Positions 1 through 47,563 of a stretch of DNA of 47,563 nucleotides are shown here, piece by piece. The notes below the pieces were generated by a model, which was not told the DNA's origin, made no database searches, and saw only the letters and a list, made by a program, of their open reading frames with translations. The DNA comes from a virus. The translations under genes and the position numbers were made by a program. Positions within the stretch are counted from its first letter, which is position 1, and each line of letters opens with the position of its first letter. The stretch is from IMG/VR virus record IMGVR_UViG_3300046714_000550, positions 1 to 47,563 of that record. One strand, given 5' to 3'.

Positions 1-95
1 AGGCCGTGGCGCTCACGATGCTGCGGCAGAACTGCGAGCGCGAGATGCTCTTCTGGCACGATTGCGTGAAGCCCGTGGTGGCGACGCTGAAGTGA
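1..95 (+). CDS. C-terminal fragment (second copy) of the 184-aa zinc-ribbon protein
   Basis: Tail of the gene at 46977-47531, present twice because of the terminal repeat. The frame starts at base 3 and ends with TGA at 93-95. It is not an independent gene: on the circular molecule it is the same coding sequence. The next gene's GTG overlaps its stop. Confidence 0.9.
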   Translation, partial: AVALTMLRQNCEREMLFWHDCVKPVVATLK

Positions 96-127
96 ACAGC
101 CTGCTGGATCGCCGAGGTCCGCGTCGT
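1..127. repeat. 127-bp exact repeat of the window's right end (circle junction)
   Basis: Bases 1-127 are identical to 47437-47563. The gene that ends at 47531 has its last 30 codons repeated here in the same frame, so the two ends join without disturbing coding. This shows a circular or circularly permuted genome of 47,436 bp. The length of 127 equals a common assembler k-mer, so I infer an assembly overlap rather than a biological direct terminal repeat; the sequence alone cannot separate the two. Confidence 0.95.
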
Positions 128-307
128 CCGCGCCGGACGCAGCAGCCTCCGCTGCGCGTCGAGCGCGCGACGTGCCAGCGCTGCGGCCGGCGCGGCTTCA
201 ACCTCTCGGGCCAGCGCCACTGTGGTGCGCGCGGCTGGGCGCGCTACGGTTACCACGTGCACCACGACGACGGCTGGCATCCGGTGCAGCGAGGACCGAA
301 GCGATGA
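92..307 (+). CDS. small arginine-rich protein with Cys pair (71 aa)
   Basis: Unrecognised. The GTG start overlaps the previous stop (GTGA), the coupling seen throughout this genome. The N-terminal third is very rich in Arg and Pro; the middle has C-x2-C followed by another Cys and a His-rich stretch (HVHHDDGWH), which could hold one metal ion or bind nucleic acid. It sits in the + strand block that starts at 46630, so an early host-takeover role is possible but unproven. High GC makes very small genes hard to verify; the overlaps on both sides are the main support. Confidence 0.55.
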   Translation: MNSLLDRRGPRRPRRTQQPPLRVERATCQRCGRRGFNLSGQRHCGARGWARYGYHVHHDDGWHPVQRGPKR

Positions 308-549
308 CGATGCACGAGAAGCTCCGCTGGTATCGCGGCAAGAGCGCGTTCGGGCACCACGAGCTGCTCCTGCTGCACGAGGCCGTGAAGCCGCCGACCT
401 CGGTGGCTGCGATCCGTCTCGTGTCCAACGCCTACGGCATGAGGCTCTGGTGCTGCTTGACGGGCAGCGAGCGCGCCTGTCACCACGAAGCCCTCGACGC
501 CGCGCTCTACTGCATCGAGCAGCGACTCGGCATCACGGAGAAGTGCTGA
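304..549 (+). CDS. hypothetical protein (81 aa)
   Basis: Unrecognised, soluble, mixed composition, with His-rich patches (FGHHELLLLHE, CHHEALDA) and three cysteines. The ATG overlaps the previous stop (ATGA) and its own TGA overlaps the next ATG (TGATG). It looks like a genuine member of a tightly packed early cassette. No domain could be named. Confidence 0.6.
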   Translation: MTMHEKLRWYRGKSAFGHHELLLLHEAVKPPTSVAAIRLVSNAYGMRLWCCLTGSERACHHEALDAALYCIEQRLGITEKC

Positions 550-1010
550 TGAACCTCGCCGACGCCGAGCGCGAGATGGCGGCCTTCGACGCGCACACAC
601 GCGCCCGGATGCGCGAGGCCGCCGGGGACTTCAAGGCGGCCATCCAGCGCTCGCTGCGCAGCCCGCGCCGCACAATCACCGGCCGCGTGCTGCGCTTCGC
701 CTGGAAGCACGAGGGCCGCATCGAGGTCTGCTCGTGCAACGCCAACAACACGCTGCGCGGCGAGCCGGGCAGCGTGAACCTCTCGGAGCGCGAGCTGCGC
801 GAGCGACTCGGCCCGAACCTCGTCGTGCGCCTCGTGCGCAGCCGCTACGGCGTGCGCTGCCTCGAGCACGCCCTGCTGGTCGGCACGCGGCGCCGGGAGC
901 CGGCAACCTTCGTGCGCGTGCGCAGCCTGGCTAGCTGGCTCGACGTGAACCCCGGCCCCATCACGCCCGACAACCTCGGCGCCGACCTGCCTTGGCGCGC
1001 ATGGCCGTGA
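549..1010 (+). CDS. hypothetical protein (153 aa)
   Basis: Unrecognised. The N-terminal 40 residues are helical and charged; the middle has a beta-like stretch (TITGRVLRFAWKHEGRIE) with CSCNAN, followed by a basic region with LVVRLVRSRYGVRCLEHALLV. It is the largest member of this + strand block and starts at the TGATG overlap at 547-551. No catalytic pattern seen. Its length and sensible composition make it the most certain gene in the block. Confidence 0.7.
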   Translation: MNLADAEREMAAFDAHTRARMREAAGDFKAAIQRSLRSPRRTITGRVLRFAWKHEGRIEVCSCNANNTLRGEPGSVNLSERELRERLGPNLVVRLVRSRYGVRCLEHALLVGTRRREPATFVRVRSLASWLDVNPGPITPDNLGADLPWRAWP

Positions 1011-1090
1011 CCACAGCCCTGCTGCTCCTGATCCTGCAGCTCCCCAGCAGCCACAAGCCCCTGCCTTGGCCCTACGCTGTCCAGCTTTGA
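1001..1090 (+). CDS. possible micro-protein with hydrophobic N-terminus (29 aa)
   Basis: The ATG at 1001 overlaps the end of the preceding gene by 10 bases. The product begins MAVTTALLLLILQLPSSHK, a short hydrophobic run like a signal or membrane anchor, followed by a Pro/Trp-containing tail. It is too short to be judged on coding statistics. It could be a small membrane peptide or chance; its place at the end of a coupled cassette is the only support. Confidence 0.3.
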   Translation: MAVTTALLLLILQLPSSHKPLPWPYAVQL

Positions 1091-1195
1091 ACCTGGACAA
1101 CGTGGCATCTCACCTTTCTTCGTTGGCACGGGGAATGCCCTCTTGAAACCCCCGGGGGGCTCGTTCCTACGATCAGCGACCTCGGGAGCGACGGA

Positions 1196-1276
1196 GGGGC
1201 CCCTGCCCGGGCGTAGCCGCCCTCCTCCCCCGCCAATGTTCCACGTGAAACATCCACGCGACCTGTGGGGCCCCTG
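1196..1276. repeat. 10-bp direct repeat GGGGCCCCTG flanking parS
   Basis: GGGGCCCCTG occurs at 1196-1205 and again at 1267-1276, 71 bp apart, on either side of the parS match at 1237-1252. Its first eight bases are a perfect palindrome. In such GC-rich DNA a 10-mer repeat could be chance, but the flanking placement is worth recording. Confidence 0.4.
1237..1252. promoter_or_regulatory. parS: parS-like centromere site (ParB binding site)
   Basis: The 16-mer TGTTCCACGTGAAACA matches the chromosomal parS consensus TGTTNCACGTGAAACA at every fixed position. ParB dimers bind this palindrome, spread as a CTP clamp and recruit ParA/SMC for segregation. The site is in non-coding DNA between two + strand operons. 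The phage encodes no recognisable ParA or ParB, so if the site works it must use host ParB. Under uniform base composition the chance of a 15-base specified match somewhere in 47 kb is about 47,436/4^15, or 4 in 100,000. Confidence 0.75.
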
Positions 1277-1647
1277 ACGTGTCTAGGGGGGTCGATCCCA
1301 CCAGCGGTCACACGCGCTGCACCTCCATCCGGGGTCGGGGCCAGGGCGGGCGGGCGTGGGCGGGCGCGTGCGCGCGTGCGGCGCGCGTTCCGCGCTCCGG
1401 CGGCGCCGGCGGCCACCAGCTCGTCGTCCGGGAGGCCCGTGCGGAGGGTTCACCCCGCCACGCGTGCGGCCCGCTGCCGCGATTGCCGGCGTGCGTCCGG
1501 GCCGGGGCCGGGAGCCCGTAGCAGCGTGCCGTGGGGCGCAGCCGGGGCTGGCCGGCCAGCTCGCGCGAGCCGGGCCGCCGCGACGAGCTGCGCGCCAAGG
1601 GGCGGCGGCGCGAGCTGTCATGGCGCACCAGCTCGCCCTGGTGGTTT

Positions 1648-1665
1648 CCCGGGAAGATCCCGGGA
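1648..1665 (+). promoter_or_regulatory. CCGGGA double site, promoter of the sigma-factor operon (site 1)
   Basis: CCCGGGAAGATCCCGGGA: two CCGGGA half-sites whose starts are 11 bp apart, the same element found upstream of 11748 and 46630. A TAGACT box (4 of 6 to TATAAT) lies at 1698-1703, 32 bp after the second half-site, comparable to the spacing at the other two sites (28 and 30 bp). The first gene of the operon starts at 1788, so here there would be a 5' leader of about 80 nt. The left half-site is embedded in the perfect palindrome TTCCCGGGAA. Confidence 0.55.
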
Positions 1666-1787
1666 CCAGCTCAAGGCCAGCTCGTGGGCGGCCGATGTAG
1701 ACTCCCGACAGCGCGGCCCGCGTGTCCGGCTTGCGCGGCCCGATGGGCGGGCCGGCAGTTGGACACGGGCCGCGCGGGGGTTCTCTG

Positions 1788-2087
1788 GTGAGCAACGCGA
1801 CGCATCTGATCAGGGTGGACATCGGAGCCGGCGAGGGCGCGAGGGATCGCGCGGCCGGCGTGTTGATCGAGCAAGCCGTGGCGCAGTTGAGCGAGAGCGC
1901 GCGGGCCGAGTTTGAGCGCGTGCTGCGCGACTGCGACAGCGGCGGCGGGATGCCGGTGGCGTTCGTCGTCGTCGCGCGCGTGCCGGACGACAAGAGCGCG
2001 ACGCGATTCCTCGCCGCCATGCAAGCGGCGGCGCGCCTCGTCGTGCGGGCGCTCGAAGCGCATCACGAAGCGGGCGGTGGCGCATGA
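1788..2087 (+). CDS. hypothetical protein, first gene of sigma-factor operon (99 aa)
   Basis: Unrecognised alpha/beta-like small protein; residues 40-70 (RVLRDCDSGGGMPVAFVVVA) suggest a strand-loop-helix fold. GTG at 1788 was chosen because a purine-rich GGGG precedes it and the conserved-looking segment follows; in-frame starts at 1722 (GTG) and 1743 (ATG) would add a Gly/Pro-rich leader. Its stop overlaps the next ATG. As the first gene behind the CCGGGA promoter it could be regulatory, but nothing in the sequence shows this. Confidence 0.6.
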   Translation: MSNATHLIRVDIGAGEGARDRAAGVLIEQAVAQLSESARAEFERVLRDCDSGGGMPVAFVVVARVPDDKSATRFLAAMQAAARLVVRALEAHHEAGGGA

Positions 2088-2305
2088 CGACGACGAGCAA
2101 GCGGCGCGACCGGAGGCAGGCAGCGCGGGCGCTGCGCGTGGTCAAGCTTGAGCGGGCGCTCGCGCATCTCGTCGCAACGCGTGGGCAGCCGGGCGGGCTG
2201 CGCGCGTGGGCAGCGGCGCTCGACCTGTTGACGGCGACCGAGAGCGGCCGGCGCGCGTTCGTCCACGCGGCGCAGCGCGCGGCGCGGAAGGGCGGCGCAG
2301 CATGA
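2084..2305 (+). CDS. small basic helical protein (73 aa)
   Basis: Unrecognised. Arg/Ala-rich, predicted almost fully helical, no cysteines, no membrane segment. It overlaps both neighbours by ATGA and lies immediately before the sigma factor, so a partner or regulator of that factor is possible, but an anti-sigma fold is not evident. Composition alone would allow a DNA- or RNA-binding peptide. Confidence 0.55.
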   Translation: MTTTSKRRDRRQAARALRVVKLERALAHLVATRGQPGGLRAWAAALDLLTATESGRRAFVHAAQRAARKGGAA

Positions 2306-2844
2306 GCGGCAAGCATCGAGAGCGAACGGACTACGGCAACGTGGCCGAGGTCTGCCGCCGCGCAGCGTCGCGCGTGCTGAGGCGCGATCCGCACGCGGCC
2401 GAAGATGCCGCGCAAGAGGCGGTGATGAAGCTGTGGCGCTGCGACCGGAGCCGCAAGCGCTGCCGGGGGCTGAGTGTTCCCGTCGCGCAGCGCTACGGGT
2501 TCGCGGTGACGTGCGCGCGGCGCGCAGCATTTGACGAGGCGCGGCGGCGCAGCACGGCGTGGGCTCCCGGGGCGCTGACCGAGGAGCCGCTCGCACCGGA
2601 GGAGCCGGGCGAAGCGGAGCGCTGCGAGGAAGCGAGCGCGGCGCAAGCCGAGGCGCGCCGTCGCCTCGACGTGGCGCTGCGCGCGTTGACGCGCAGCGAG
2701 CGCGGAGTCATCCGGCTGCGCTTCGTGGCGCGCGTGAGCGACGCGTGGATCGCCCGTCACTACGGCATCAGCGAGGGAGCGGCGCGCGTGCGCGTGTGCC
2801 GCGCCGTCGCGAAGATGCGCGCGGCAGATCGGAGCGGCGCATGA
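2302..2844 (+). CDS. ECF-type RNA polymerase sigma factor (180 aa)
   Basis: Likely directs host core RNA polymerase to particular promoters. Region 2 spans about residues 12-80, with the sigma-70-like helix AEDAAQEAVMKLW (33-45) that normally binds core polymerase and the -10 element. A Pro/Glu-rich linker (90-115) follows, then region 4 at about 123-173: LRALTRSERGVIRLRF and the helix-turn-helix WIARHYGISEGAARVRVCRA that normally reads the -35. Having only regions 2 and 4 and being 180 aa long fits extracytoplasmic-function (ECF) sigma factors. The ATG overlaps the previous stop. Targets are unknown; the three CCGGGA promoters or host promoters are candidates. The region 4 signature is clear; region 2 is more diverged. 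Confidence 0.8.
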   Translation: MSGKHRERTDYGNVAEVCRRAASRVLRRDPHAAEDAAQEAVMKLWRCDRSRKRCRGLSVPVAQRYGFAVTCARRAAFDEARRRSTAWAPGALTEEPLAPEEPGEAERCEEASAAQAEARRRLDVALRALTRSERGVIRLRFVARVSDAWIARHYGISEGAARVRVCRAVAKMRAADRSGA

Positions 2845-3044
2845 GCAAGCGCGACGTGGCGCGATTGGAGAAGCTCCGCGAGCGGCTCGCCTTCCTCGAA
2901 GGGCTCACGGTCAGCGAGCGCAACGGGTGGGCTCACGACTGCGCCGGTTGGCAGCGCTGGGAGCAAGGGCGCAGCGAGGCGGCAGCGGCGCTCGCGGAGC
3001 TTGACGGGCTCCTGAGCGGCCCGGCGGAAGGCGGCGCAGCATGA
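2841..3044 (+). CDS. hypothetical coiled-coil protein (67 aa)
   Basis: Unrecognised. The first 22 residues (VARLEKLRERLAFLEGL) form a heptad-like helix, then NGWAHDCAGWQRWEQ with three Trp, then a second helix. It overlaps the sigma-factor stop by ATGA and the next start likewise. The position directly after the sigma factor makes a regulator of it conceivable, without direct evidence. Confidence 0.55.
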   Translation: MSKRDVARLEKLRERLAFLEGLTVSERNGWAHDCAGWQRWEQGRSEAAAALAELDGLLSGPAEGGAA

Positions 3045-3232
3045 CGCCCATCGAGCAAGAGCTGAGGCAGGCGCTGCGCGAGGCGGCCGGCAAGCTCGAC
3101 CGGGCGGCCGGCGCGCTGCGCGAGATAGGCGGCTATCGCGGGCTGGCGTCGTTGCTGGATAGGTGCGCCTCGCGGGCGCTGCAAGCGCTGGAAGATGACG
3201 CGCGCAGCGGCGCGGGAGCGCGCGAGTGGTGA
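3041..3232 (+). CDS. hypothetical helical protein (63 aa)
   Basis: Unrecognised, Ala/Arg/Glu-rich, predicted all-helical (LRQALREAAGKLDRAAGALR), no membrane segment. Starts at an ATGA overlap and ends at 3230-3232. Part of the same coupled run as the sigma factor. Confidence 0.5.
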   Translation: MTPIEQELRQALREAAGKLDRAAGALREIGGYRGLASLLDRCASRALQALEDDARSGAGAREW

Positions 3233-3342
3233 GCGGCCGGAAGATCGGGGCGGCCCGGCCCGTGGCGGGCTTGGCCGCCCCCTTCTCCCGCCCGCTTGGC
3301 CGCGCACGGTGCGCGGCAGGCGACGGCGGCAGGGAGGCGAGC

Positions 3343-3567
3343 ATGGTGAGGCGACAACACTGGGACAGCGAGCCGGCCGGCGACGACGACAGGAGCGGGT
3401 TCGCGGACCCGGGCGGGCGCAGCGCGCTGCGCGCAGCTCGCAAGGGCAACCCGCGCAACCTGCCCTGCCCAACATGCAAGGAGCCCAACAGGCTCACGCC
3501 GGCCGACCGGGCGCGCGGCTATCAGTGCGACGCGTGCGCCGACCGCGACGAGGGGGGCGGGTTCTGA
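3343..3567 (+). CDS. small zinc-ribbon protein (74 aa)
   Basis: Residues 42-65 contain CPTC and, 19 residues later, CDAC, a two-knuckle zinc ribbon of the kind found in many phage nucleic-acid-binding proteins. ATG 3343 is chosen because GGGAGG lies 5 nt upstream; an in-frame GTG at 3229, overlapping the previous stop, would give 112 aa with a low-complexity leader. The N-terminal half is charged and probably disordered. Function unknown. Confidence 0.6.
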   Translation: MVRRQHWDSEPAGDDDRSGFADPGGRSALRAARKGNPRNLPCPTCKEPNRLTPADRARGYQCDACADRDEGGGF

Positions 3568-3683
3568 TGCCACAGCTCAGGGACGGCCGAAACCACGTCC
3601 GCGCCCGGGAGGTCGCGCTCGTGATCTTCTGGCTGGCGCTGGCCGTGGCGCTCGTGCTCCACGGTTGCTCGAGCTCGAGCTAG
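3567..3683 (+). CDS. very small membrane or lipoprotein-like protein (38 aa)
   Basis: TGATG overlap with the zinc-ribbon gene. A charged N-terminus is followed by a strongly hydrophobic segment ALVIFWLALAVALVL and then HGCSSSS. LHGC resembles a lipobox, so it could be a lipoprotein with almost no mature chain or a single-pass membrane peptide. It is the last gene before the operon's terminator. A spanin or superinfection role is possible; nothing decides. Confidence 0.5.
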   Translation: MPQLRDGRNHVRAREVALVIFWLALAVALVLHGCSSSS

Positions 3684-3699
3684 GCCAGGCGCCAGGACA

Positions 3700-3736
3700 C
3701 GCGGGCCCGGCCGGCAGCTCGCCAGCCGGGCCCGCG
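3700..3736. terminator. hairpin terminator between convergent operons
   Basis: Perfect 12-bp stem: left arm 3700-3711 (CGCGGGCCCGGC), loop of 13, right arm 3725-3736. It lies between the + strand operon ending at 3683 and the - strand operon ending at 3742, so it can serve both. Neither side has a clear U-run, so termination may be weak or need Rho. Confidence 0.6.
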
Positions 3737-3741
3737 GTCGT

Positions 3742-3960
3742 TCAAGGGCGCGGCGGCGGAGCGCCAGGCACACACAGGCTGCAGGCGTGCCACGGCCCAC
3801 ACACGCGACCGTCGCGGCCGGTGCGCGCGGTCGCCCCGCACACGCAGACCGCATATCCACCCGGCGTGCCGGCCGGATGAAGCACGGCGTGGGAATGGAC
3901 GCTCGCCAGCTTGCTGCGCACCGAGGCCGCCGCGCGCTGGTCGGGATCGAGGCGGCTCAT
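3742..3960 (-). CDS. small Cys-rich protein, last gene of the recombination operon (72 aa)
   Basis: Unrecognised. The C-terminal half has CVC, a further Cys about 14 residues on, then CSLC, giving enough cysteines for one zinc site. The ATG overlaps the stop of the upstream gene (ATGA). The stop lies just before the shared hairpin at 3700-3736. Confidence 0.6.
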   Translation of the reverse strand: MSRLDPDQRAAASVRSKLASVHSHAVLHPAGTPGGYAVCVCGATARTGRDGRVCGPWHACSLCVPGAPPPRP

Positions 3961-4274
3961 GCGCCGCCCTTCCCGCCGGCCACCGCCCGGGCGGCGTTCT
4001 CTCGAACCTTGCGCGCCGTCTCGGGATTGTCGCAGCCCCAGCCGTAGCTGAGGACATCCCGCAGCGCCTGCTCCAGCTCCGCGCAGCGGGCCAGCGCGGC
4101 GTCGCGCTCCGACAGCAGCGAGGCGTGGCTGCCGTGCCCGTCGCAGGCGAACAGCGCAGGGCCGCTGCCGTCATGCTCCGCAACCAGCCGACAGCCGCAG
4201 TCCGCAGCGCCTTCGCGCTCGCTGTCCTGCAACCAGATCCACGGCCTCGCCGTCGCCTTGTCCGTGCCGCTCAA
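3957..4274 (-). CDS. hypothetical protein, probable TTG start (105 aa)
   Basis: Unrecognised. The frame is open well upstream, but the only sensible start linked to the neighbour is TTG at 4274, which overlaps the stop of the 195-aa gene (TTGA); there is no ATG or GTG near the N-terminus. Residues 25-50 carry CGC and a later Cys/His group (FACDGHGSHAS), possibly metal binding; a helix (LLSERDAALARCAELEQALRDVL) follows. The start codon is the uncertain part. Confidence 0.55.
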   Translation of the reverse strand: MSGTDKATARPWIWLQDSEREGAADCGCRLVAEHDGSGPALFACDGHGSHASLLSERDAALARCAELEQALRDVLSYGWGCDNPETARKVRENAARAVAGGKGGA

Positions 4275-4858
4275 GCCGCACCGCCCTTCGTCAGCACCGA
4301 CTCGATCAGATCGACCAGCCCGGCGCAGTCCTTCCAGTGCAGGTCCAGCTCGCCCTTCGCGGCGAAGCGCAGCGAGTTCTGGCAGCGGCGCAGCATGTCG
4401 CGCAGCTCGTCGTCGCTGGCCGGCGCCTCGGGCGCGCCCTCGATCCCGGCGCGCGTGTCCCAGCCGCCCACGCTGCGCTTGTCGAGGAAGCAACCAGCCG
4501 GCGCGGGCCCGTTGAACCCGTAGCCGCCCCACGTCAGCACGCACCAGTCGGGCCCGCTCAGGTCAACGAGGAACATGCCCGCGTCGCCGTGCGACTCGAT
4601 GCGCAGCGCCTCGCCCATCGAGCGAGGACCGTTCCACGCGCCCAGCGACAGGTTGCCGTCGAGCCGCCCGTGCGCGATGCCGAGGAAGCGCGAGAACGTG
4701 TAGCCGACGTCCTTGTCACGCCCGCGCATCCGCTCGCGCAGCTCACCGAGGAGCGAACCCATGTCGCTCCCCGACCAGTGCAGATACGCGACGGGAGAGA
4801 GTTCGAGGTTCTTGCCTTCCTCGCCGTTGTGAAAGACCACCAAAGCACGATCGCCCAT
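4271..4858 (-). CDS. conserved-looking hypothetical protein (195 aa)
   Basis: Begins with ALVVFHNGEEGKNLELSPV and AYLHWSGS, followed by a helix and FSRFLGIAHGRLDGNLSLG, then SHGDAGMFLVDLSG and WCVLTWGGYGF. The pattern looks like a single alpha/beta domain occupying the first 125 residues with a helical C-terminus. I have seen similar phage hypotheticals with the YLHW element but know no function. The start at 4858 skips an upstream in-frame stretch lacking coding character. A 200-bp gap with a palindrome lies upstream. Confidence 0.7.
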   Translation of the reverse strand: MGDRALVVFHNGEEGKNLELSPVAYLHWSGSDMGSLLGELRERMRGRDKDVGYTFSRFLGIAHGRLDGNLSLGAWNGPRSMGEALRIESHGDAGMFLVDLSGPDWCVLTWGGYGFNGPAPAGCFLDKRSVGGWDTRAGIEGAPEAPASDDELRDMLRRCQNSLRFAAKGELDLHWKDCAGLVDLIESVLTKGGAA

Positions 4859-4950
4859 GATGAAGCACCCCGGCGCGCGCCGGCCGTCGCTCGCAGGACC
4901 CACTCCCGCGCAGCGCGGCACGCTCTCGCGCGCCGCTCAAGGTGTACCAC

Positions 4951-4964
4951 GTTTCCCGGGAAAC
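4951..4964. promoter_or_regulatory. 14-bp perfect palindrome GTTTCCCGGGAAAC, possible operator
   Basis: A perfect palindrome in the 200-bp gap 4859-5060, about 90 bp upstream of the 195-aa gene. Its core TTCCCGGGAA is the same as in the CCGGGA double site at 1646-1655, so it may be a single-dimer version of the same operator. No good -35/-10 pair is visible next to it on the - strand. Confidence 0.5.
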
Positions 4965-5060
4965 GGAATCGCGGCCCCGGCCCGGCTGATGATGGGCGCG
5001 CCGGCGACCGGGGGCGCGCGGTCGATCTCGGGAGAGACAGGGGGCACGCGCCGCGCACGG

Positions 5061-5516
5061 TCAGACGCCACCAGCCGGGCCAGGACCGCGAGGGGGCAGC
5101 GTAGCAGCCCCGTTGCCGGGATCAACACTCGCGGCCTTCCTGCGCGCGTTCCACGCGTCCACACGCGCGTACCAAGGGCCTTCCTTCGCCCGCCGCCGCC
5201 GCTCCCAGCCGCGCCCATGCTCGACGCGCGGACGCGCGAGCTCGGGCAGGCCCATCAGCCAGAACGCCGGGATCAGGTAGCGGTGCTGCCGCTTGCGGTT
5301 GTAGGGGTTCGGCCAGCGCGCCGCCGGAATCCAGCCCTTCGCACACCAGGTCTGCACGGTGGTCTGCGTCACTCCGAACACACGCGCGCACTCGCTGGTC
5401 GTGACCCAGCGCACGCTGTCCCAGCCTAGGCCGTGCTGGCCGGCGCGGAACCTCGACTCCAGCAGCTCGACGCGCGCGGCCAACTGGAACAGGAGCCGCT
5501 GCTCGAGGTCGCTCAC
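5061..5516 (-). CDS. helix-turn-helix DNA-binding protein (151 aa)
   Basis: Residues about 38-85 form a MerR/excisionase-like HTH: VTTSECARVFGVTQTTVQTW, then CAKGWIPAARWPN and a basic wing with RKRQHRYLIP. An N-terminal amphipathic helix (residues 4-22) could dimerise; the C-terminal 55 residues are Arg/Trp-rich. The GTG start at 5516 overlaps the previous stop (GTGTGA). It is a candidate reader of the TTCCCGGGAA operators, the nearest of which is 97 bp downstream of its stop; that link is inference. Confidence 0.75.
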   Translation of the reverse strand: MSDLEQRLLFQLAARVELLESRFRAGQHGLGWDSVRWVTTSECARVFGVTQTTVQTWCAKGWIPAARWPNPYNRKRQHRYLIPAFWLMGLPELARPRVEHGRGWERRRRAKEGPWYARVDAWNARRKAASVDPGNGAATLPPRGPGPAGGV

Positions 5517-5872
5517 ACCATCTCGCGATGCGGCAGCGGGATGTCCTGGTCGTGCGGGCGCCACAGGTGCAGGCAATACTCGTGGACGTTCACGCGCTCG
5601 GCGCGCGGCGGCGAGAGCTGCATGACCCAGTCGTCGTCCTCGAAGAACAGGCCGCGCACCCACTCCATCTCGAACCAGTTGGGGCAGCGCTTCTTGCCCG
5701 ACACGCTCACGTGGTCCCAGCCCATGCCGTCGCCCACGACCACGCGCAGCATGATGTTGTGCGGGCTCTCCAGCAGGAACGCGCCGTGGCGCGTGGTGCG
5801 GTGTCGCGTGCCCATCGGGCCCACGACGACGCGGCCGTTCTCGACAAGGTCGCTGTAGACGGGTCGCAACAT
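5513..5872 (-). CDS. hypothetical protein (119 aa)
   Basis: Unrecognised, mostly beta-like, with DLVENGRVVVGPMGTRH, IMLRVVVGDGMGWDHVSVSG and CPNWFEMEWVRGLFF, and a His-rich C-terminus (NVHEYCLHLWRPHDQD). The ATG at 5872 overlaps the previous stop (TGATG). The sequence is well behaved in composition, so the gene is likely real. Confidence 0.65.
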   Translation of the reverse strand: MLRPVYSDLVENGRVVVGPMGTRHRTTRHGAFLLESPHNIMLRVVVGDGMGWDHVSVSGKKRCPNWFEMEWVRGLFFEDDDWVMQLSPPRAERVNVHEYCLHLWRPHDQDIPLPHREMV

Positions 5873-32831: not shown

Positions 32832-34160
32832 TCAGCTCAGGGTGAGGCTCTCGTTCTTGAAGCTCTTGCGCGGCGCGTCCGTCACCATGTTGCCCATGAT
32901 GTACAGGACGGCCTCCAGCGAGAACTTCCGGTTGGTGCTCGGCCGCAGGACCGTGCCCTGGCCGCCGTCCCACCACTTGAAGTCCGTGACCAGCGCCGTG
33001 TAGATGCTCGACAGGTCGAGCCCGTACACGGTGCCCGTCTTGCTGACGGTGCCCTGCGTGTCGATGTCCACCGGGCAGAACTTGTCGACCACGATCGGCA
33101 CGCGGCCGTCGAAGAAGAGGAAGTCGTGCGCGTCCGGGTGGTGGTCCTCGAGCTTCCCGCTGATGTAGCCGGGCATCAGCAGGTTGCTGTTCACGAGGCG
33201 CCGCGGGTTGTCCGTGGCGAGCCCGTCGTACAGGTTCCGGCGCACGATGCGGTTCATCAGCAGGCAGTTCACGTCGCCGTTGCTGTCGTCGTGGGTGTTG
33301 TCCAGGTTGGTCTGGATCATGGTCTCGTTCAGCAGCGTGCTGGTGTCCTCGATGGACTGCCACCACGTGTTGCCCGAGCGGTTGACGCCCTGGAAGAGCG
33401 CGCCCTCCAGCGGCGGGTTGGACGAGTCGATGAGGCCGCCGAGGCCCATCATCTCGAAGCCCTGCGTGGCCGTGCGGACACCCGCACGCGTCAGCACCGA
33501 GTTGTCGAGGATGTTCACGCCGACGTTCATCGACAGCACGCCCGAGCCGTCCGGGTTGCGCTGCACCGAGATGACCACGAGGCCGGCGTTGGTCAGCGCC
33601 GCGCCCGAGAGGCCGGTGCTCCAGTTGTCGAGCTTCTGGCCCTCGAAGAACGGCCGGTGGTAGCTCACCGGGACGTTGGCCGGCGAGGCCGCGGTGACGG
33701 CCGCCGTCACGCGCGCGAGCGTGCCGCTGCCGTTGCCGTAGGTCTCGCGGTCGAGGTCCTCGGCCACGTCCTGCACGAGACCGGCCATCTCGAAGTCGAT
33801 CGCGGAGAAGAAGGCCCCGCGGTCGTTCTTCGAGCTGTCGATCACGTCCTGCGCGATCTCCAGCGCGCCCATCACGAGCTTGGGCTGCACGATGCCGTTC
33901 TCGATGCCCTGCTGCCCGGCCTCGATCAGCGTCGGGATCGCGCCCGCGTTGGCCGGGGACGAGATGGCCACCGCGCCGACGCCCGTGTTCCGCGACTTGC
34001 GAACGGGGAAGATCATGCGGCGGCCGGCGAAGTCCACGATCTTGCGGCGCAGCAGCGCCCAGGTCGTGGACATGCTGTTGAGCTGGTCGATCCAGCTCGA
34101 CAGGTAGTACTCCTTCAGGAACTTGTCGTAGGAAGCGAGGGTCTGCGGGGTGCTGACCAT
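32832..34160 (-). CDS. major capsid protein, HK97-like (442 aa)
   Basis: The N-terminal arm (LASYDKFLKEYYLSSWIDQL), then KIVDFAGRRMIFPVRKSRNT and ALEIAQDVIDSSKNDRGAFF, an acidic helix with FEMAGLVQDVAEDLDRETYG, beta-rich P-domain segments and a C-terminal DFKWWDGGQGTVLRPSTNRK are consistent with phage coat proteins of the HK97 fold. The length of 442 aa fits. It follows the scaffold gene and is followed by the strong hairpin, as expected for the most abundant product. SD is weak (GGAA, 8 nt). Confidence 0.8.
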   Translation of the reverse strand: MVSTPQTLASYDKFLKEYYLSSWIDQLNSMSTTWALLRRKIVDFAGRRMIFPVRKSRNTGVGAVAISSPANAGAIPTLIEAGQQGIENGIVQPKLVMGALEIAQDVIDSSKNDRGAFFSAIDFEMAGLVQDVAEDLDRETYGNGSGTLARVTAAVTAASPANVPVSYHRPFFEGQKLDNWSTGLSGAALTNAGLVVISVQRNPDGSGVLSMNVGVNILDNSVLTRAGVRTATQGFEMMGLGGLIDSSNPPLEGALFQGVNRSGNTWWQSIEDTSTLLNETMIQTNLDNTHDDSNGDVNCLLMNRIVRRNLYDGLATDNPRRLVNSNLLMPGYISGKLEDHHPDAHDFLFFDGRVPIVVDKFCPVDIDTQGTVSKTGTVYGLDLSSIYTALVTDFKWWDGGQGTVLRPSTNRKFSLEAVLYIMGNMVTDAPRKSFKNESLTLS

Positions 34161-35252: not shown

Positions 35253-37532
35253 TCAATACCCCTCTGATCCTTCGCCGTCTCCGCCGTCGCTCATCGACTG
35301 CTTCCGGTTCGCGCCCTGACCCTGCGGGGTGTTCATGTCGGGCGACCTGTTTCCGTTGCTCATGCCCTTCCCGGGCCCGGCCTGGCCGCCGCCTGCGCCG
35401 CCCATCAGGCCTGCGGCCGCCATGCCGCCCGAGAGCATCATCGCCGCCGGGCCGACCGGGTTGGCGGGGTTCACGCCCATCATGGCCATGTGCTGCGGCT
35501 GCGCGTGCATGGCGATGTGGAGCTGGAAGGCCACGGCCACGAGCGGGTCCTTGGCGACCGCCGCGCGGTACTCGTCGCCCTTCATGAACTGGAGGTGCTC
35601 CTCGATGTGCGCCGCGTGGTCCTCGAACCACTCGACCTTCGACTGGATGCCCTGCACGAGCATGTCGTTCTCGGCCTGCGCCCAGCGGCGGTCCTGCTCC
35701 TCGCTGCGGCCGAAGTCGTCGCCGACCCCCAGCTCCATCATCTGCAGCAGCACGCGGCGGTGCGCCGGGATCTGCGGGATGTAGAGCCCGAGCTGCACCA
35801 GCGACGTGACCAGCGCCTGCATCGCGGCCTTGCTCTTCGGGAGTCCTGAGCCTGCCTGCACGCGCACGTCGATGTTGTGGCCGATGTCCGCGCCCTTGAA
35901 GGCGAAGCTCTCGATCTGCTTGTCCTTGCCGACGACGCTGACGATGCGCTCGACGTTCCAGTATTGCGCGCAGCGCAGCAGGATCTGGCGCCCGAGCTGC
36001 TGCTCGAAGGTCTCCCAGTTGAGCGTGAGCGGCCCGAGGTCGGTCGCGTCCTGCTCCTGCAGCAGCGAGATGCCGATGCCCGAGCGCACGTTGGTCGGCG
36101 TCTGCCCGCGCGAGGGGCCGTGCTGGTTGGACACGAAGTCCACCATCTGCAGCAGGTACTCGATGAGCTGCGCCACGAACGCCGGCAGGTCCGGCATGGC
36201 CATGATCTCGGGGCGCCCGCCGCCGAGGTTGTTGTAGTAGACCTTCTCGCCGGGCTCGCTGGTGAGCTTGTTCGCGCCGATCGCGCACGAGTGCGGAATC
36301 AGGATCTTCGGCCGCGCCATGAGGCGCTGGTTCTCGATCACGTTGCTGGTGACGCGGTTGATCTCGCGCTGGATCGGCGCGAGGTTGCTGACCACGCTGA
36401 TCGGCCAGAAGCGGCCGCCCTCGATCGAGCGCGCCTGCACGAAGGGATGCCAGTCGCGGTCGAGCTCGGCGCCCGGCGCGTTGAGGATGTCGATGGGCTG
36501 CAGCTCGCAGAAGCCCTGGCATTGAGTGAGCAGCCCGCCCTTGGGCCACATCTTGCCGGCGAAGTAGTTGCCCGGCTTGAGCCACATCTCGTTCACGCGC
36601 GCGCCCTCGGTGGGCGTACCCGGCGCGAGCCCGGCCTGCAGCGAGCCGGCGGCGGACAGGTTGTTCATCTGCGCTTCGATCGTGCCGTACTCGTCGTCGC
36701 GCTCGTTGGTGACGTACTGGCCCCACGTCGGAAACTTCCCGCGGACCCAGTCGAGGCTGCGGCGCCGCGTGTGGATGAGCCACGTGATCTCGCGGAAGGT
36801 GCGCGCCTGCGGGTCCACGAGGATCTGCTCGGGGTAGCACATCTCGACTTCGACGCGGCCCGGCTGGTAGGTCAGCGGCTTGCCCGTGTCCGCGTTGACC
36901 ATCGGCGTGCCGGCGTTGGGCGTGCCCTCGGGCCACGTGAGCGGCTGGCCGCTCTCGTCGTCCACGGCTTCGAGCTGCGGGCCGGCGCCCGGGTTCCAGA
37001 GCACCTTGGCGAAGCAGCTCGCCTTGACCAGCGACACGATGCAGATTTGCAGGCGCAGCGCCGGGAGGTCCAGGTCCTGGTTGACGTAGTCGAGGATGCG
37101 CTCGGCCGCGCGCGCGGCGTTCTTGTCGGAGTTCTCGTTGCTCGCGGGCACGACCACGGCCTGCGGCCGCGTCTTGAGGATCATCGAGGCCATCGTCTGC
37201 ACCACCGGCAGCACGACGTTGATGACGATGCGCACGCGGTACTTCGGGACCGCGGTTTCCTGGATCAGTCGCCGCAGCGTGTCGGACCACGTCGCGTACT
37301 GGTTGCCCACGTAGAGGGCGTGCAGGATCGCCCACTCCCGGTGCTGCGGATAGAAGATGGTCGTGGCCATCATCTGGCACTGGCGCACCGCGCCCGCGAG
37401 CTGCGCCATGAGCGGCGGGATGTCCACCGGCGGCTTGGCCGGCATGTCCTCGGCGAGCTGGCCGCGGCCGAAGCTGCGCGTGCCCATCATGGGCGCGGCG
37501 GTGCTCGGCGGGAGCCGGCCCATCACGGGCAC
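35253..37532 (-). CDS. portal protein (759 aa)
   Basis: The dodecameric ring at the capsid vertex through which DNA passes. Supporting elements: LYVGNQYATWS near the N-terminus, VLPVVQTMASMILKTRPQA, many Trp/Pro-rich wing and stem segments (WLIHTRRRSLDWVRGKFPTW), a long helix at about residues 430-470 (FVAQLIEYLLQMVDFVSNQH) and helical crown segments toward the C-terminus, then a Met/Gly-rich tail. The length is close to P22-type portals (about 725 aa). Position between terminase and scaffold agrees. Start GTG 37532 or ATG 37523. Confidence 0.8.
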   Translation of the reverse strand: MPVMGRLPPSTAAPMMGTRSFGRGQLAEDMPAKPPVDIPPLMAQLAGAVRQCQMMATTIFYPQHREWAILHALYVGNQYATWSDTLRRLIQETAVPKYRVRIVINVVLPVVQTMASMILKTRPQAVVVPASNENSDKNAARAAERILDYVNQDLDLPALRLQICIVSLVKASCFAKVLWNPGAGPQLEAVDDESGQPLTWPEGTPNAGTPMVNADTGKPLTYQPGRVEVEMCYPEQILVDPQARTFREITWLIHTRRRSLDWVRGKFPTWGQYVTNERDDEYGTIEAQMNNLSAAGSLQAGLAPGTPTEGARVNEMWLKPGNYFAGKMWPKGGLLTQCQGFCELQPIDILNAPGAELDRDWHPFVQARSIEGGRFWPISVVSNLAPIQREINRVTSNVIENQRLMARPKILIPHSCAIGANKLTSEPGEKVYYNNLGGGRPEIMAMPDLPAFVAQLIEYLLQMVDFVSNQHGPSRGQTPTNVRSGIGISLLQEQDATDLGPLTLNWETFEQQLGRQILLRCAQYWNVERIVSVVGKDKQIESFAFKGADIGHNIDVRVQAGSGLPKSKAAMQALVTSLVQLGLYIPQIPAHRRVLLQMMELGVGDDFGRSEEQDRRWAQAENDMLVQGIQSKVEWFEDHAAHIEEHLQFMKGDEYRAAVAKDPLVAVAFQLHIAMHAQPQHMAMMGVNPANPVGPAAMMLSGGMAAAGLMGGAGGGQAGPGKGMSNGNRSPDMNTPQGQGANRKQSMSDGGDGEGSEGY

Positions 37533-41020: not shown

Positions 41021-42652
41021 TCAGTCGAAGTCGTCGTCCCAGGCATCGAGGGAGGCGGCCTCTAGGTGATCTTGGATCTGGTGGCCGATGCCTTGTGCGT
41101 CGTCCATGAGAACGTCCCCGATCCTCGTCGGCAAGGACGCAAGCGCGCCCGGCGGCGACCCGACCTGATAACAGCCCTGCAAGGCCAGCGCGAGGGCCAT
41201 GACCCGGTCGTCGTTTCCGGCCACCGCGCCGAGGCCGTGGCTGCTGCGAGGGGCGTCCTCGGTGAGATAGCCGAACAGCCGCAGCTCCTCGACGGTGTCG
41301 CGGTCGTAGAGCTTGAGGATGCGCTCGCCGTCGGCGCCGATGTCGCGCAGCACGTCCTTGAGCTGGTTGCAGGCGAGGCCCTTGGTGCGCGCGTCGGTGT
41401 ACCAGCCGATGTTGGCCATGAGGTGGCCCTCTTCGCTCAACTTGTCCTGCTGCTGGCGCCGGTAGATGTTCGGGTAGCCGAGGCGCTCCAGCACGGCCAG
41501 CGTGCCCATGCCGTGCTGGTTGATCTCGGGCACGATCAGGCCCTTGTTGTAATACGTCGCCAGCGCGACCAGCTCCTCGGCGAAGCGGCCCGGGTCCATG
41601 TGCCCGTGCCAGACGGCGACCTGCTTGAACTCCGTGGCGTCGATGACCTGCGCGCAGGAGTAGTCGCCCAGCGCGGCGCCGCCGGAGACATCGCCGCCGA
41701 CTGCGTAGAAGCGGTCGCGCCGCGGTGCCGCGAAGATCTTGAGCCGGCCCTCGGGCTCGGAGAGCGTCTTGACCCTGGTGCCCGACCAGTAGAGCCGGCC
41801 CTGCCAGATGCGGTTCTTGGTCTCGACGCTCTCGCAGCGCGGGAGCTGCGCCTCGACGTCCTCGCGCGCGAAGAACGGCGAGCCGATCCGCAGGATGAAG
41901 TCGCCGTAGACGCGGATGCGCAGCTCGTCGCCGGTGTAGCGCTTCTTGGCGAGTTCGATCTCCTTGACCGGGATGTAGGGGTTGTCCACGAGGCCCATGG
42001 TGATGAGCTCGAGGAAGTCCTCGTCGGCCTTGGTGTCGAAGAGCAGCTTGTGCAGCCAGCGCAGGCCCTGCAGCGCGGTGAAGCCCATGATGATCTGGCC
42101 ACCGCAGTCGATCGTGCGCGCGTAGCACTCGTTGTAGATGTCCTCGGGGTGCTCCTCGTCCAGCACGATGACCTCGCGCGACGTGCCCTGGTACTTGCTG
42201 CGCCCGGAGTCCGCGGACTTGAAGCCGATCGTGCTGCCATCCCGCTCGTCGCGCCACAGCCGATCGGCGGCGCGCCACGTGATGAGCTTCTTGGCGATGG
42301 CGTCGGGCGGGATGAAGCCGCGGACCTTCTCCTCGGACACGTCGCGCGAGACGTTGGCATCGAGCGCGCTGACCCAGACGTTGATGGGCCGCTTGTAGGT
42401 GATGAGCCGCCCGAACTCGCGCGTCAGCACGGGCGACCAGCCCATGAAGCGCTCGGTGGCGATGCGGTGGATCACGTCGCTCTTGCCGGTGCGGTTGGCG
42501 CCCAGCACGACCACGTGCCGCTTCTGCGATTTCATCGCGCGGAGCTGCTTGGGGTGCGGCTTCCACGAGTAGAACGGATGCGTGCTCTGCATCCGCTCGA
42601 AGAGCTCGGCCGAGATGCCGCGGAGTTGCTGGGCGGCCAGCTCGTCGCTCAC
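41021..42652 (-). CDS. terL: terminase large subunit (543 aa)
   Basis: ATP-driven DNA packaging motor with a headful or site nuclease. Walker A: GANRTGKS at 51-58. Walker B: VIVLDEE at 161-167 (the following His is unusual). Coupling motif near MGFTALQG (189-196). RNase H-like nuclease: D321 in AVGGDVSGG, E376 in LIVPEINQHG and an acid in GNDDRVMALALAL toward the C-terminus. Length is normal. The GTG at 42652 overlaps the upstream stop; the preceding in-frame stretch lacks coding character. Confidence 0.92.
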   Translation of the reverse strand: MSDELAAQQLRGISAELFERMQSTHPFYSWKPHPKQLRAMKSQKRHVVVLGANRTGKSDVIHRIATERFMGWSPVLTREFGRLITYKRPINVWVSALDANVSRDVSEEKVRGFIPPDAIAKKLITWRAADRLWRDERDGSTIGFKSADSGRSKYQGTSREVIVLDEEHPEDIYNECYARTIDCGGQIIMGFTALQGLRWLHKLLFDTKADEDFLELITMGLVDNPYIPVKEIELAKKRYTGDELRIRVYGDFILRIGSPFFAREDVEAQLPRCESVETKNRIWQGRLYWSGTRVKTLSEPEGRLKIFAAPRRDRFYAVGGDVSGGAALGDYSCAQVIDATEFKQVAVWHGHMDPGRFAEELVALATYYNKGLIVPEINQHGMGTLAVLERLGYPNIYRRQQQDKLSEEGHLMANIGWYTDARTKGLACNQLKDVLRDIGADGERILKLYDRDTVEELRLFGYLTEDAPRSSHGLGAVAGNDDRVMALALALQGCYQVGSPPGALASLPTRIGDVLMDDAQGIGHQIQDHLEAASLDAWDDDFD

Positions 42653-43965: not shown

Positions 43966-44446
43966 GCTGCTCTCCTTCGGGCAGCGAGAGCATCGTGCGC
44001 GCGGTCGCGACGAGCCGGTCGCGCTTCACGAGGAAGGCGCGCGCGAACCCGATCCTCATGTCCTCCGCGCGGCCGGTCTGCAGCGCGTGCCATCCACCGA
44101 CGCTGTCGACAATGCCCCAGAGAAAATCGCCGACCTCCTCGCGCGCCTCGCGGTAGCACTCGGCGTCGTCGTAATGGCCCGGCATCGCCGCGGCCACGCG
44201 CGTCCACGCCTGCTCAGGCGAGAGCTCGGCGCCGGCCGGAAGTTGCGCGCCGACGATCTGCGACATCAGCTCGGCGATGGTCGGGAAGAACTTGCTGTGC
44301 AGGACGTGCTGGCGCGCGGCGAGCTCGAGCTGGTCGATGGGCGCGTGCTGCAGCGCTTCACCGAAGGCCGCGAGCGTCTCGGGTCCGATGTTCGCGTTGG
44401 GGTAGCACGCGGCCAGGTACTTGATGACGTCGTACAGCGATTTCAC
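43946..44446 (-). CDS. G39P-like replicative helicase loader/inhibitor (166 aa)
   Basis: The N-terminal domain has the pattern YDVIKYLAACYPNANIG, ETLAAFGEALQHAPIDQLEL, then RQHVLHSKFFPTIAEL (45-60); the K/S-FFPTIAE element after a helical bundle is typical of SPP1 G39P and related phage proteins that deliver the host DnaB-type helicase to the phage origin. The C-terminal part (70-166) is longer and helical. It directly follows the DUF1376 replication gene (GTGA overlap), which supports the role. Confidence 0.65.
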   Translation of the reverse strand: MKSLYDVIKYLAACYPNANIGPETLAAFGEALQHAPIDQLELAARQHVLHSKFFPTIAELMSQIVGAQLPAGAELSPEQAWTRVAAAMPGHYDDAECYREAREEVGDFLWGIVDSVGGWHALQTGRAEDMRIGFARAFLVKRDRLVATARTMLSLPEGEQRAALSG

Positions 44447-45276
44447 TTGGGCGGCTCCGGCGTGTGTTGGTCGAGCATGGACTTGAACTCCTTGAGCGCC
44501 TGCATCGCGCGCGGCAGCGGCGCGTGGCCGTTGCCGCTGCCCTCGCCGTGCACGCAGCGGTTCCACTGGGAGCGCAGCGTTCCGAGGTTGGCGCCGCGGT
44601 CGGACCAGAACGGGTCGGTCAGGTGAACCTCGGCGCGGCGCAGGGCCTCCTGCACGTTGCCGCCGGCGAGCTTCAGGATCTCGTTGACGTGGGCCCCGTC
44701 CTTGGCGCCCTCGAAGCTGTACTTGGCGCCGTCGCGGTGGCTGGCGAAGAGCCCTGACCAGCCCTGAATGAACTCCGCCCGCGGGGCCTGCTCGGGCAAG
44801 GAGAGACCACCCGCAGGGTGCGTCTCTCCTTGAGGAAGGCCACCCGCAGGGTGAGCCTTCCTCCTACCTGAAGGAGAAGATGAAGAGCTTGGCCGCGGCT
44901 TTCCGGTCGGAACCATCGGCTTAGCAGCGGGTTTTCCTGCCGGAGGACGGCCTCCTTTCCGCCCTTTCTCCGACTGCATGGCCCTGTACTTTTCCTGCTT
45001 CTTGCGGGCTTCGTCGATGAACCCGATGTTCCAGAACGCCCCGTCCCGAAAGCAGAGGTAACCCACGGCTTTCCAGACGTCCGGCCAGTCGGCCTCGGGG
45101 ACGCAGGCGATGCGTCGCAGGCGGTCCTCTTCGGCGGGCAGGCGGCCGTGTCGCCAGGCCGAGCAGGCCAGCGCGAGGAAGGCCCCGCGCTCCTGTGCCG
45201 AGAGGCCGGCGGTGTCGGCCATGAACTGATCGGGGTAGAACTGGAAAGCCGGTGAGGGCTGCTTCGCGCTGGGCAT
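44443..45276 (-). CDS. DUF1376 (YdaU-type) replication protein (277 aa)
   Basis: Residues about 11-95 match DUF1376: FQFYPDQFMADTAGLSAQER, GAFLALACSAWRHGRLPAEE and FRDGAFWNIGFIDEARKKQE. Members act as phage replication initiators or organisers. A basic, Pro/Ser-rich linker (96-165) contains the repeat HPAGGLPQGET / HPAGGLSLPE, which at the DNA level is the tandem hairpin element at 44798-44863. The C-terminal 110 residues are helical. SD GGAG precedes ATG 45276; an in-frame GTG at 45372 is less convincing. Confidence 0.7.
   Translation of the reverse strand: MPSAKQPSPAFQFYPDQFMADTAGLSAQERGAFLALACSAWRHGRLPAEEDRLRRIACVPEADWPDVWKAVGYLCFRDGAFWNIGFIDEARKKQEKYRAMQSEKGRKGGRPPAGKPAAKPMVPTGKPRPSSSSSPSGRRKAHPAGGLPQGETHPAGGLSLPEQAPRAEFIQGWSGLFASHRDGAKYSFEGAKDGAHVNEILKLAGGNVQEALRRAEVHLTDPFWSDRGANLGTLRSQWNRCVHGEGSGNGHAPLPRAMQALKEFKSMLDQHTPEPPK
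44798..44863. repeat. two tandem hairpins with identical tips inside the DUF1376 gene
   Basis: Hairpin 1: 44798-44831; outer arms AAGGAGAGAC and GTCTCTCCTT. Hairpin 2: 44832-44863; outer arms GAGGAAGGC and GCCTTCCTC. Both carry the same upper stem-loop CACCCGCAGGGTG (5 bp, GCA loop) and each has one unpaired base at the same place after that stem. Outer arms differ between the two but stay perfectly paired. The two abut with no gap. They lie over the low-complexity linker of the protein. A replication origin, packaging or RNA-processing element is possible. Confidence 0.85.
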
Positions 45277-45409
45277 CTCGTTCTCCAGGCCGACCCGCTG
45301 CGCCGCGGTCACGGGGATGGCGGCTGGGGAGGGGAGAACGAGAGCCCTCGCGCCGCGGCGCAGCAGCTTCACCGGGAGCTACCCGGCTGCACGGTTTGCG
45401 AGTTGTCTC

Positions 45410-45760
45410 CTACGGTTTTCCCGGATTCAAGTCCAGCTTGCTGCGCCAGACGAACACGCCCTGCGCGAGAGCCCAGACGCCGAAGGTGCCGGGCGGCAGT
45501 CCGGCCTTGCGACCGAACGCGCGCACGGCTGTGCGCACGGTGCGGGCCGCGCGCTCGGGGTCCATGTTGTTCTGCTGCAGCGGCACGCGGAAGCCCTTGC
45601 CGGGAGCCAGCGCCGCGGCCCTGTCGAACAGCGCCTTCCACGCACCGGAGCTGCCGCTGAGTCGCAGGCCCTGCACTCCGTCCATCGGCTCGTCGTCGCC
45701 GATCTGGTCGAGGTCCACGGCCGAGCGCTGCGTGGACCGCAGCTTCCTTGGGCGCGGCAT
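45410..45760 (-). CDS. hypothetical protein (116 aa)
   Basis: Unrecognised. Middle region LFDRAAALAPGKGFRVPLQQ then NNMDPERAARTVRTAVRAFG and a C-terminal VWALAQGVFVWRSKLDLNPG, an alpha/beta mix perhaps built for nucleic acid. The ATG overlaps the GroES stop (TGATG). A 133-bp gap follows before the DUF1376 gene with no clear promoter in it. Confidence 0.65.
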   Translation of the reverse strand: MPRPRKLRSTQRSAVDLDQIGDDEPMDGVQGLRLSGSSGAWKALFDRAAALAPGKGFRVPLQQNNMDPERAARTVRTAVRAFGRKAGLPPGTFGVWALAQGVFVWRSKLDLNPGKP

Positions 45761-46167
45761 CAGCTCTCTCCGGTCTGCGCGGCCGCGACCTGCGAGCGCA
45801 CGGCGACGACCTCGTCCTCGCCCAGCAGCAGCAGGTTGGCCTCCTCGCCGCCGAGCTGCAGGCCGGCGTAGGCGCCGAAGAGCACGACGTCGCCCGGCTG
45901 GAACGGCACGAGCTGCGGCACGCCGTTGCTCGGGTCCATGTCCAGGCGCAGCATCTCAACCTGGGTCGCCTGCCGGCCGCACTCGTTGCCGACGGCGAGC
46001 ACGACACCTTCGTTGGGTTTCTCGCGGGCCTGCACGTCATCGGGCAGGAGCACGCCGCCCTTGCTGGCCTTGGCGGCTTCGACGCGCTGCACCAGCACGC
46101 GCTTGCCGACGGGCCTGATGATCGTGCGCGGCTGCGTGGCCGGCTGCGGTTCAGGGAGTGCGCTCAC
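45760..46167 (-). CDS. groES: phage GroES-like co-chaperonin (135 aa)
   Basis: Residues 18-125 follow the Cpn10 fold: RPVGKRVLVQRVEAAKASKG, the mobile loop ending GGVLLPDD (37-44; VLL in place of the GroEL-binding IVL), EGVVLAVGNECG (53-64), and FQPGDVVLFGAYAGLQLGGE (89-108) then NLLLLGEDEVVAVR. An insertion (65-88) lengthens the roof region. Phage GroES proteins such as T4 gp31 cap host GroEL and enlarge the cage for coat protein. No GroEL is present, so it should work with host GroEL. Extra N- and C-terminal tails. GTG start overlaps the upstream stop. Confidence 0.85.
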   Translation of the reverse strand: MSALPEPQPATQPRTIIRPVGKRVLVQRVEAAKASKGGVLLPDDVQAREKPNEGVVLAVGNECGRQATQVEMLRLDMDPSNGVPQLVPFQPGDVVLFGAYAGLQLGGEEANLLLLGEDEVVAVRSQVAAAQTGES

Positions 46168-47531: not shown

Positions 47532-47563
47532 ACAGCCTGCTGGATCGCCGAGGTCCGCGTCGT
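47437..47563. repeat. right copy of the 127-bp end repeat
   Basis: Identical to bases 1-127. It contains the last 30 codons of the 184-aa gene and the first 12 codons of the next + strand gene (GTG at 47528), which continues at the left end of the window. Confidence 0.95.
47528..47563 (+). CDS. N-terminal fragment (second copy) of the 71-aa protein
   Basis: The first 12 codons of the gene at 92-307, repeated because of the end overlap and cut by the window edge. Not a separate gene. Confidence 0.85.
   Translation, partial: MNSLLDRRGPRR

Follow-up and report, generated by a model that had tools for sequence, protein, structure and literature searches.

Why would a phage in which no partition protein can be detected carry an exact copy of a bacterial chromosomal parS site? 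We addressed this question in a podovirus-like virus record of 47,563 b and 70% G+C, the whole of which we call the window (Table 1). The first 127 bases of the record (1-127) are identical to its last 127 (47437-47563), perhaps an overlap left by the assembly of a circular or permuted molecule. Given these identical ends, the record probably represents the complete genome, circular or permuted, with a length of about 47,436 b. In addition to the genes listed in Table 1, the window encodes an exonuclease, a helicase-loader-like protein and a primosome-like protein. A GroES is also annotated in Pelagibacter phage HTVC023P. Two very long genes on the minus strand, at 12674-21592 (2,972 amino acids) and 24720-30674 (about 1,984 amino acids, with an uncertain start), together make up almost one third of the genome; neither had a match in a PHROG comparison, and they possibly encode internal virion or tail proteins.

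The original prediction was of a perfect chromosomal parS in a phage with neither its own ParAB nor an integrase, and both absences held as far as we searched. The 18 Pfam families matched by the 57 predicted proteins include no ParA, ParB or integrase, and DNA-level family searches of the window found neither ParB_N nor HTH_ParB. Nor was there a Pfam family for a replication initiator or a partition gene among the 57 proteins, in a search to which an RNA-based origin is invisible. No repressor was recognised among the window's proteins, aside from a sub-threshold helix-turn-helix match in the protein encoded at 5061-5516. The window does not fit a phage-plasmid with its own ParABS, of the P1 or RedRock type, as it has no detected ParA or ParB.

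Table 1 Features of the window, with positions in the 47,563-b record.
Feature	Position	Strand	Basis or remark
Predicted gene, no family; last before the gap	549..1010	+	Codon-usage calls
Gap between predicted genes, holds the parS site	1011..1787	.	Codon-usage gene calls
Left flank repeat GGGGCCCCTG	1196..1205	+	Contains one of the genome's two GGGGCCCC
Host-type parS, C variant, proposed ParB loading site: TGTTCCACGTGAAACA	1237..1252	+	Exact pattern match
Right flank repeat GGGGCCCCTG	1267..1276	+	Contains the other GGGGCCCC
Predicted gene, no reliable family; first after the gap	1788..2087	+	T2SSF match below cut-off only
RNA polymerase sigma factor, regions 2 and 4	2302..2844	+	Pfam PF04542, PF04545; phrog_1740
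Major head protein	32832..34160	-	phrog_14242
P22-like portal protein	35253..37532	-	phrog_156; PF16510
Terminase large subunit	41021..42652	-	phrog_2
DUF1376 gene	44443..45372		Family match
GroES co-chaperonin	45760..46167	-	phrog_3188

As predicted, the candidate site TGTTCCACGTGAAACA agrees with the parS consensus TGTTNCACGTGAAACA without a mismatch, every one of the 15 fixed positions carrying the expected base. It is an imperfect palindrome, in which the C at position 5 is not mirrored by the A at position 12. When up to 3 mismatches to TGTTNCACGTGAAACA were allowed, 1237-1252 was the sole site in the window (together with its own reverse complement), a result that was not significant in a shuffle test at that tolerance (mean of 0.39 matches, with two or more matches in 9 of 100 shuffles). 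Markov models of order 0-3, fitted to this genome, put the expected number of exact matches at 3.0e-6 to 3.0e-5 per genome and at 5e-8 to 5e-7 for a stretch of the length of the gap, values that apply to a motif named beforehand and to one genome, not to the many windows and motifs that were read.

The site had also been placed in a gene-free region flanked by a repeat, and we recovered both features. Codon-usage gene calling put the site in the largest gap between predicted genes (777 b), and the two other large gaps in these calls turned out to be occupied by recognised genes, those for the sigma factor and the DUF1376 protein. No promoter-like or terminator-like match was found in the gap, with a promoter scan that covers high-GC promoters poorly, and an Rfam search of the gap returned no family. 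Three stop-free frames of 232, 145 and 125 amino acids cross the parS site, and their G+C by codon position is not coding-like; long open frames are frequent at 70% G+C. The flanking repeat, GGGGCCCCTG, starts at 1196 and at 1267, and its two copies hold the only two occurrences of GGGGCCCC in the whole genome. Among viral parS sites in general, GGGGCCCC was present within 150 b of 5 of 149, compared with 0 of 120 control sites, and the idea that GGGGCCCC goes with parS in general was dropped as weakly supported.

That the 16-mer is a parS of bacterial chromosomes was likewise borne out by bacterial genomes. TGTTCCACGTGAAACA is present in at least 119 bacterial genome stretches, and among the matches listed, parB lies inside the same stretch (within 8 kb) in 34 of 119, a count for which the ParB queries were drawn partly from these very genomes. 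More than one TGTTYCACGTGRAACA per stretch was seen in 57 of the 119, again among the matches listed. All 26 genomes that we picked from those of the 119 stretches and tested encode an HTH_ParB domain. The 80 titles among the matches listed include Pseudomonadota, Actinomycetota, Bacillota and Bacteroidota. In bacteria, TGTTCCACGTGAAACA is a real chromosomal parS. The bacterial copies, identical in sequence to the window's 16-mer, sit in bacterial genomes, in part near parB, whereas the window's copy sits on a phage with no detected parA or parB.

We then looked at relatives of the window. Its portal and head proteins are related at 23-32% identity to those of Arthrobacter phage Jasmine and its kin, Microbacterium phage Shocker, Cellulosimicrobium phage DS1 and uncultured podoviruses, and a related terminase was found in 54 viral contigs, with a TerL identity of 40% or less in all of them. 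None of six named relatives carries parS at up to one mismatch. Among the 48 of these 54 distant relatives whose records we searched, TGTTNCACGTGNAACA was found with up to two mismatches in three, compared with one of 48 for a reversed control; one of the three matches lies inside an 894-amino-acid frame and another just before the terL of its own contig. A further one of these matches, TGTTCCACGTGGAACC, is separated by 31 b from an ATG of the opposite strand and is covered by longer frames too. These counts are neutral on function here, because the DNA of the gap region is common to no compared locus: blastn of window positions 511-3600 against 526 loci gave no match. Against phages, blastn of positions 1-6000 returned one 52-b match only, in two records of one phage, and megablast of positions 6001-30000 returned none. 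A search of viral contigs with the major head protein found no relative. Bacterial genomes, searched with a TerL alignment, likewise yielded no relative and hence no prophage. The parS in the window is a single observation within its own lineage, for which close relatives were not found.

For a broader view we compared 120 parS loci (149 sites) with 120 loci carrying a control palindrome of matched composition, both taken among the matches listed from 2.9 million viral contigs, and judged the contrast by the free base of the motif and by the position of sites relative to frames, not by match numbers. Among the matches listed, the free base of viral parS was T at 102 sites, C at 41, G at 4 and A at 2, compared with 13 T, 31 C, 44 G and 32 A in the control. 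C is far commoner than G or A at this position, which shows that the C variant, which is that of the window, is also selected. Sites outside stop-free frames of at least 100 amino acids made up 63 of 149 for parS and 4 of 120 for the control, and several sites per locus occurred at 19 of 120 parS loci and at 0 of 120 control loci (both among the matches listed). The same frame measure puts the window's own site inside frames of more than 100 amino acids, and so gives that site no help. A terminase lies near the site at 37 of the 120 loci with parS and at 11 of the 120 controls, and the nearest site is upstream of terL at 26 and 2 loci, respectively (among the matches listed), but we discarded these counts as proof, since they are biased by terminase queries that had been drawn in part from parS loci. 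ParB_N was detected in 5 of the 99 parS-bearing viral records tested (of 120), in 4 of them above the cut-off; such records are often fragments, and host DNA may account for some of the 120 loci.

Some contigs are rich in sites. Exact parS occurs five, five and three times in the related viral contigs L024 (2657-3444), L067 (10535-11462) and L078 (240-961), and the five copies in L067 lie at the terminase gene and just 5' of it. At L396 (1501-2627; the record of L036, 68% G+C), three exact parS fall in one predicted frame of 392 amino acids, which is maybe no gene.

The results so far bear on a rival explanation of the window's site, that it is a chance match noticed since many windows were read. 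Random matches are to be expected from 2.9 million contigs, in which the control pattern gave at least 120 matches as well, and the window's distant relatives are mostly without the site. Against this stand the expectations given above, both per genome and per gap-sized stretch, the location of the site in the largest gap between predicted genes and the viral enrichment of the C variant over G and A, a preference that the control palindrome does not have. On this evidence we consider a chance match unlikely.

Conservation of parS could be followed in a marine family of podovirus-like phages. By DNA similarity, 27 of the 120 parS loci could be joined, with best segments mostly at 63-80% identity. 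In six loci (L010, L029, L039, L042, L064 and L099), parS lies in a poorly alignable gap directly 5' of a gene for 481-487 amino acids, identified in L064 as that of the terminase large subunit (phrog_38); in L068, parS lies about 1 kb upstream of this gene. At four loci the site falls in a short frame (L045 at 5333, right after the portal gene; L035 at 1059; L084 at 88; L087 at 8005) that reads V-[S/P]-R-E-T; the codons for V, R, E and T are the same throughout, and the one between is TCA or CCA. The codon identity across these four diverged contigs looks as if the DNA, beyond the protein, had been kept.

Because these loci had been chosen for carrying parS, we retrieved relatives of the L064 terminase whether or not they had parS, and used the best 80 of 600 matching stretches. 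Exact parS was present in 62 of these 80 marine loci (best 80 of 600). Six of the 80 overlap with the parS-selected set (four are the same contigs and two have long exact shared DNA), and with this overlap removed, 56 of 74 marine loci carry exact parS. Among the 75 loci with at least about 170 b of upstream sequence, 52 have an exact TGTTTCACGTGAAACA at 77-152 b 5' of terL, and one more has it with one mismatch. Nine others of the 75 have a site near -1057, eight of them exact and one with one mismatch. Matches with two mismatches in this set are tandem copies of TGTTCCACGTGGAACA only; TGTTCCACGTGGAACA forms a second site 23-24 b from TGTTTCACGTGAAACA, upstream of terL, in a subclade of 11 loci (L371-L376, L378-L381 and L384). 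After thinning at 90% terL identity, a site lies within 400 b in 18 of 28 loci and within the compared stretch in 19 of 28. We used these counts instead of a conservation profile, whose value of 1.0 over the 16-mer arises by construction from the selection of exact sites. No site was found in the compared stretch of 16 of the 80 loci, three of which have less than 130 b upstream and one of which carries an exact site in another part of its record, about 6.6 kb upstream of terL (computed by hand). These siteless loci show that the marine family can dispense with parS at that position. The near all-or-none distribution is as would be expected of a binding site under selection that is occasionally lost or relocated, and orphan parS has been kept against diverged flanks in these other phage families.

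None of 30 whole records had HTH_ParB above the cut-off; they comprised the window, 24 of the viral records studied here and five named phages, and a single weak match fell below that cut-off. By terminase, the closest named phage, at 62%, is HTVC027P of Ca. Pelagibacter, which carries CGTTTCACGTGAAACA, a match to the consensus at 15 of 16 positions, between two genes (L385 at 879; record position 16412). Allowing one mismatch revealed no site in DSL-LC04, HTVC106P or CRP-902; HTVC023P has no canonical site, only TGTTACACATGTAACA. The sequence GGGNCCC occurs within 150 b of marine parS, upstream of 36 of the 62 sites and downstream of 54. Like the window, the marine family is podovirus-like, with a terminase, a portal protein, one or a few parS and no ParB in the records tested. 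It differs from the window in that there is no detectable DNA relation, the site is mostly just 5' of terL and the terminase belongs to phrog_38, whereas that of the window belongs to phrog_2. Together with the control comparison, these observations support the conclusion that, in other phage families, parS sites unaccompanied by a detected parB are non-random and have been conserved.

Conservation of a palindrome might also reflect an operator, read by a phage or host regulator that chances to recognise a similar sequence, with ParB uninvolved. A near-palindrome between genes resembles an operator, GGTTCCACGTGGAACA lies 31 b upstream of an ATG in a terminase-related contig (where longer alternative frames overlap it), and the protein encoded at 5061-5516 in the window has the helix-turn-helix match mentioned above. 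An unrelated regulator would have no need, however, of a palindrome that equals the parS consensus at 16 of 16 positions in 62 of 80 marine loci. The window's site likewise agrees with that consensus at 15 of 15 fixed positions, and the viral free base takes T and C and hardly A or G (among the matches listed). We regard an operator of this kind as decidedly improbable. The placement of the site points the same way: relative to terL, within one family, it is found at -77 to -152 in most loci, near -1057 in others and, in one record, about 6.6 kb upstream, and because this distance is so variable, a position-tolerant loading site fits better than an operator.

Placement is also central to a second explanation that does involve ParB, in which host ParB clamps repress or un-silence nearby phage promoters and replication dilutes ParB, so that the site counts copies and times gene expression. 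This would suit the marine family, in which most sites lie 77-152 b upstream of terL, and the window, in which the sigma-factor gene lies 1 kb downstream of parS; in Pseudomonas aeruginosa, according to the available text of PMC5521831, promoters next to parS3 and parS4 are repressed. A timing switch is harder to reconcile with terL distances that range from 77 b to about 6.6 kb inside one family, with a distance in the window of about 6 kb from parS to terL if the genome is circular, and with a gap that contains no promoter-like match in a scan that is poor on high-GC promoters. Although we think it rather unlikely, such copy-dependent gene timing is the main rival to the positioning, compaction or partition of phage DNA, which we favour.

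Because the 16-mer is a real chromosomal parS and orphan sites in phages are non-random, recruitment of host ParB is the best reading of the site. On balance we think it more likely than not, from the sequence comparisons described here, that TGTTCCACGTGAAACA is a chromosomal-type parS used in trans, which would load host ParB and thereby tie phage DNA to the host machinery. ParB is described in the accessible part of PMC12704722 as a CTP-switched clamp that is loaded at parS and then spreads, and in that of PMC5815017, spreading reaches up to 2 kb around single sites in Caulobacter. By the same steps, ParB-CTP of the host would bind the phage parS after infection, close as a clamp and slide onto the adjoining phage DNA. 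The phage genome would then bear a host segregation complex that none of its own genes encodes. Host ParB binding, clamp loading and a benefit to the phage are what we infer; the likeliest gain is one that tolerates the position of the site, namely tethering of replicating or stalled, non-integrated phage DNA to ParA or the nucleoid and to SMC. The gain could take the form of positioning, of compaction or, if infection is slow, of inheritance by daughter cells. The original prediction had proposed that the phage or its circular prophage form may recruit host ParB, and that it might persist in this way as an episome. The recruitment of ParB stands as the best reading, given the identity of the site to chromosomal parS and the conserved orphan sites elsewhere. 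The episomal part was not supported, with no initiator, partition or integrase family and no recognised repressor in the window; episomal lysogeny is possible.

The nearest precedent, by analogy, is SGI1, a mobile element that mimics the parS of another replicon, binds the ParB of that replicon and gains stability (PMC10954446, in the text available). The parS and ParB in that system are those of a plasmid (IncC) and the carrier is an integrative mobilizable element, whereas the window has a chromosomal-type site on a phage; binding and stability are demonstrated for SGI1 in the same text, whereas the window's site is known from its sequence. SGI1 also lends support to a different use of such a site, as its parS-like copies destabilise the IncC plasmid (PMC10954446, available text). 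Many phage copies of parS might similarly act as a decoy that soaks up ParB and disturbs host segregation or division to the benefit of the phage, and for this a single site per genome would suffice once the phage had replicated. A lytic phage would presumably profit little from a segregation block within one cycle, and we consider a decoy highly improbable.

Extrachromosomal prophages of the RedRock type resemble host ParB recruitment by the window in that non-integrated phage DNA has a centromere. According to the available text of PMC7157519, however, these phages encode their own ParA and ParB, neither of which was detected in the window, and the parS loci of RedRock consist of eight direct repeats of an 8-bp motif, in contrast to the 16-bp chromosomal palindrome studied here. 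In the open-licence literature searched, as far as its texts were available, we met no account of phages that lack parB and yet carry a chromosomal-type parS. A single paper, PMC10197239, contains both the 16-mer and the word phage, and the sites discussed in its available text are chromosomal.

Other phage families carry chromosomal-type parS without a detected ParB, which suggests that they borrow the segregation protein of their hosts. We are evenly divided on whether orphan host-type parS is a widespread phage strategy, gained more than once, in which several tailed-phage families keep one to five sites, often 5' of the terminase genes, and bring host ParB clamps (with SMC, perhaps) onto their DNA during infection for positioning, condensation or copy-counting, with the window as a high-GC example. 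If host ParB is indeed loaded on phage DNA, a core chromosome-segregation protein would join phage biology in several families, and a parS in a metagenomic contig would no longer mark chromosome origins alone. The question of why phages without partition genes keep a centromere would then be directly testable, with HTVC027P and its host as a named phage-host pair.
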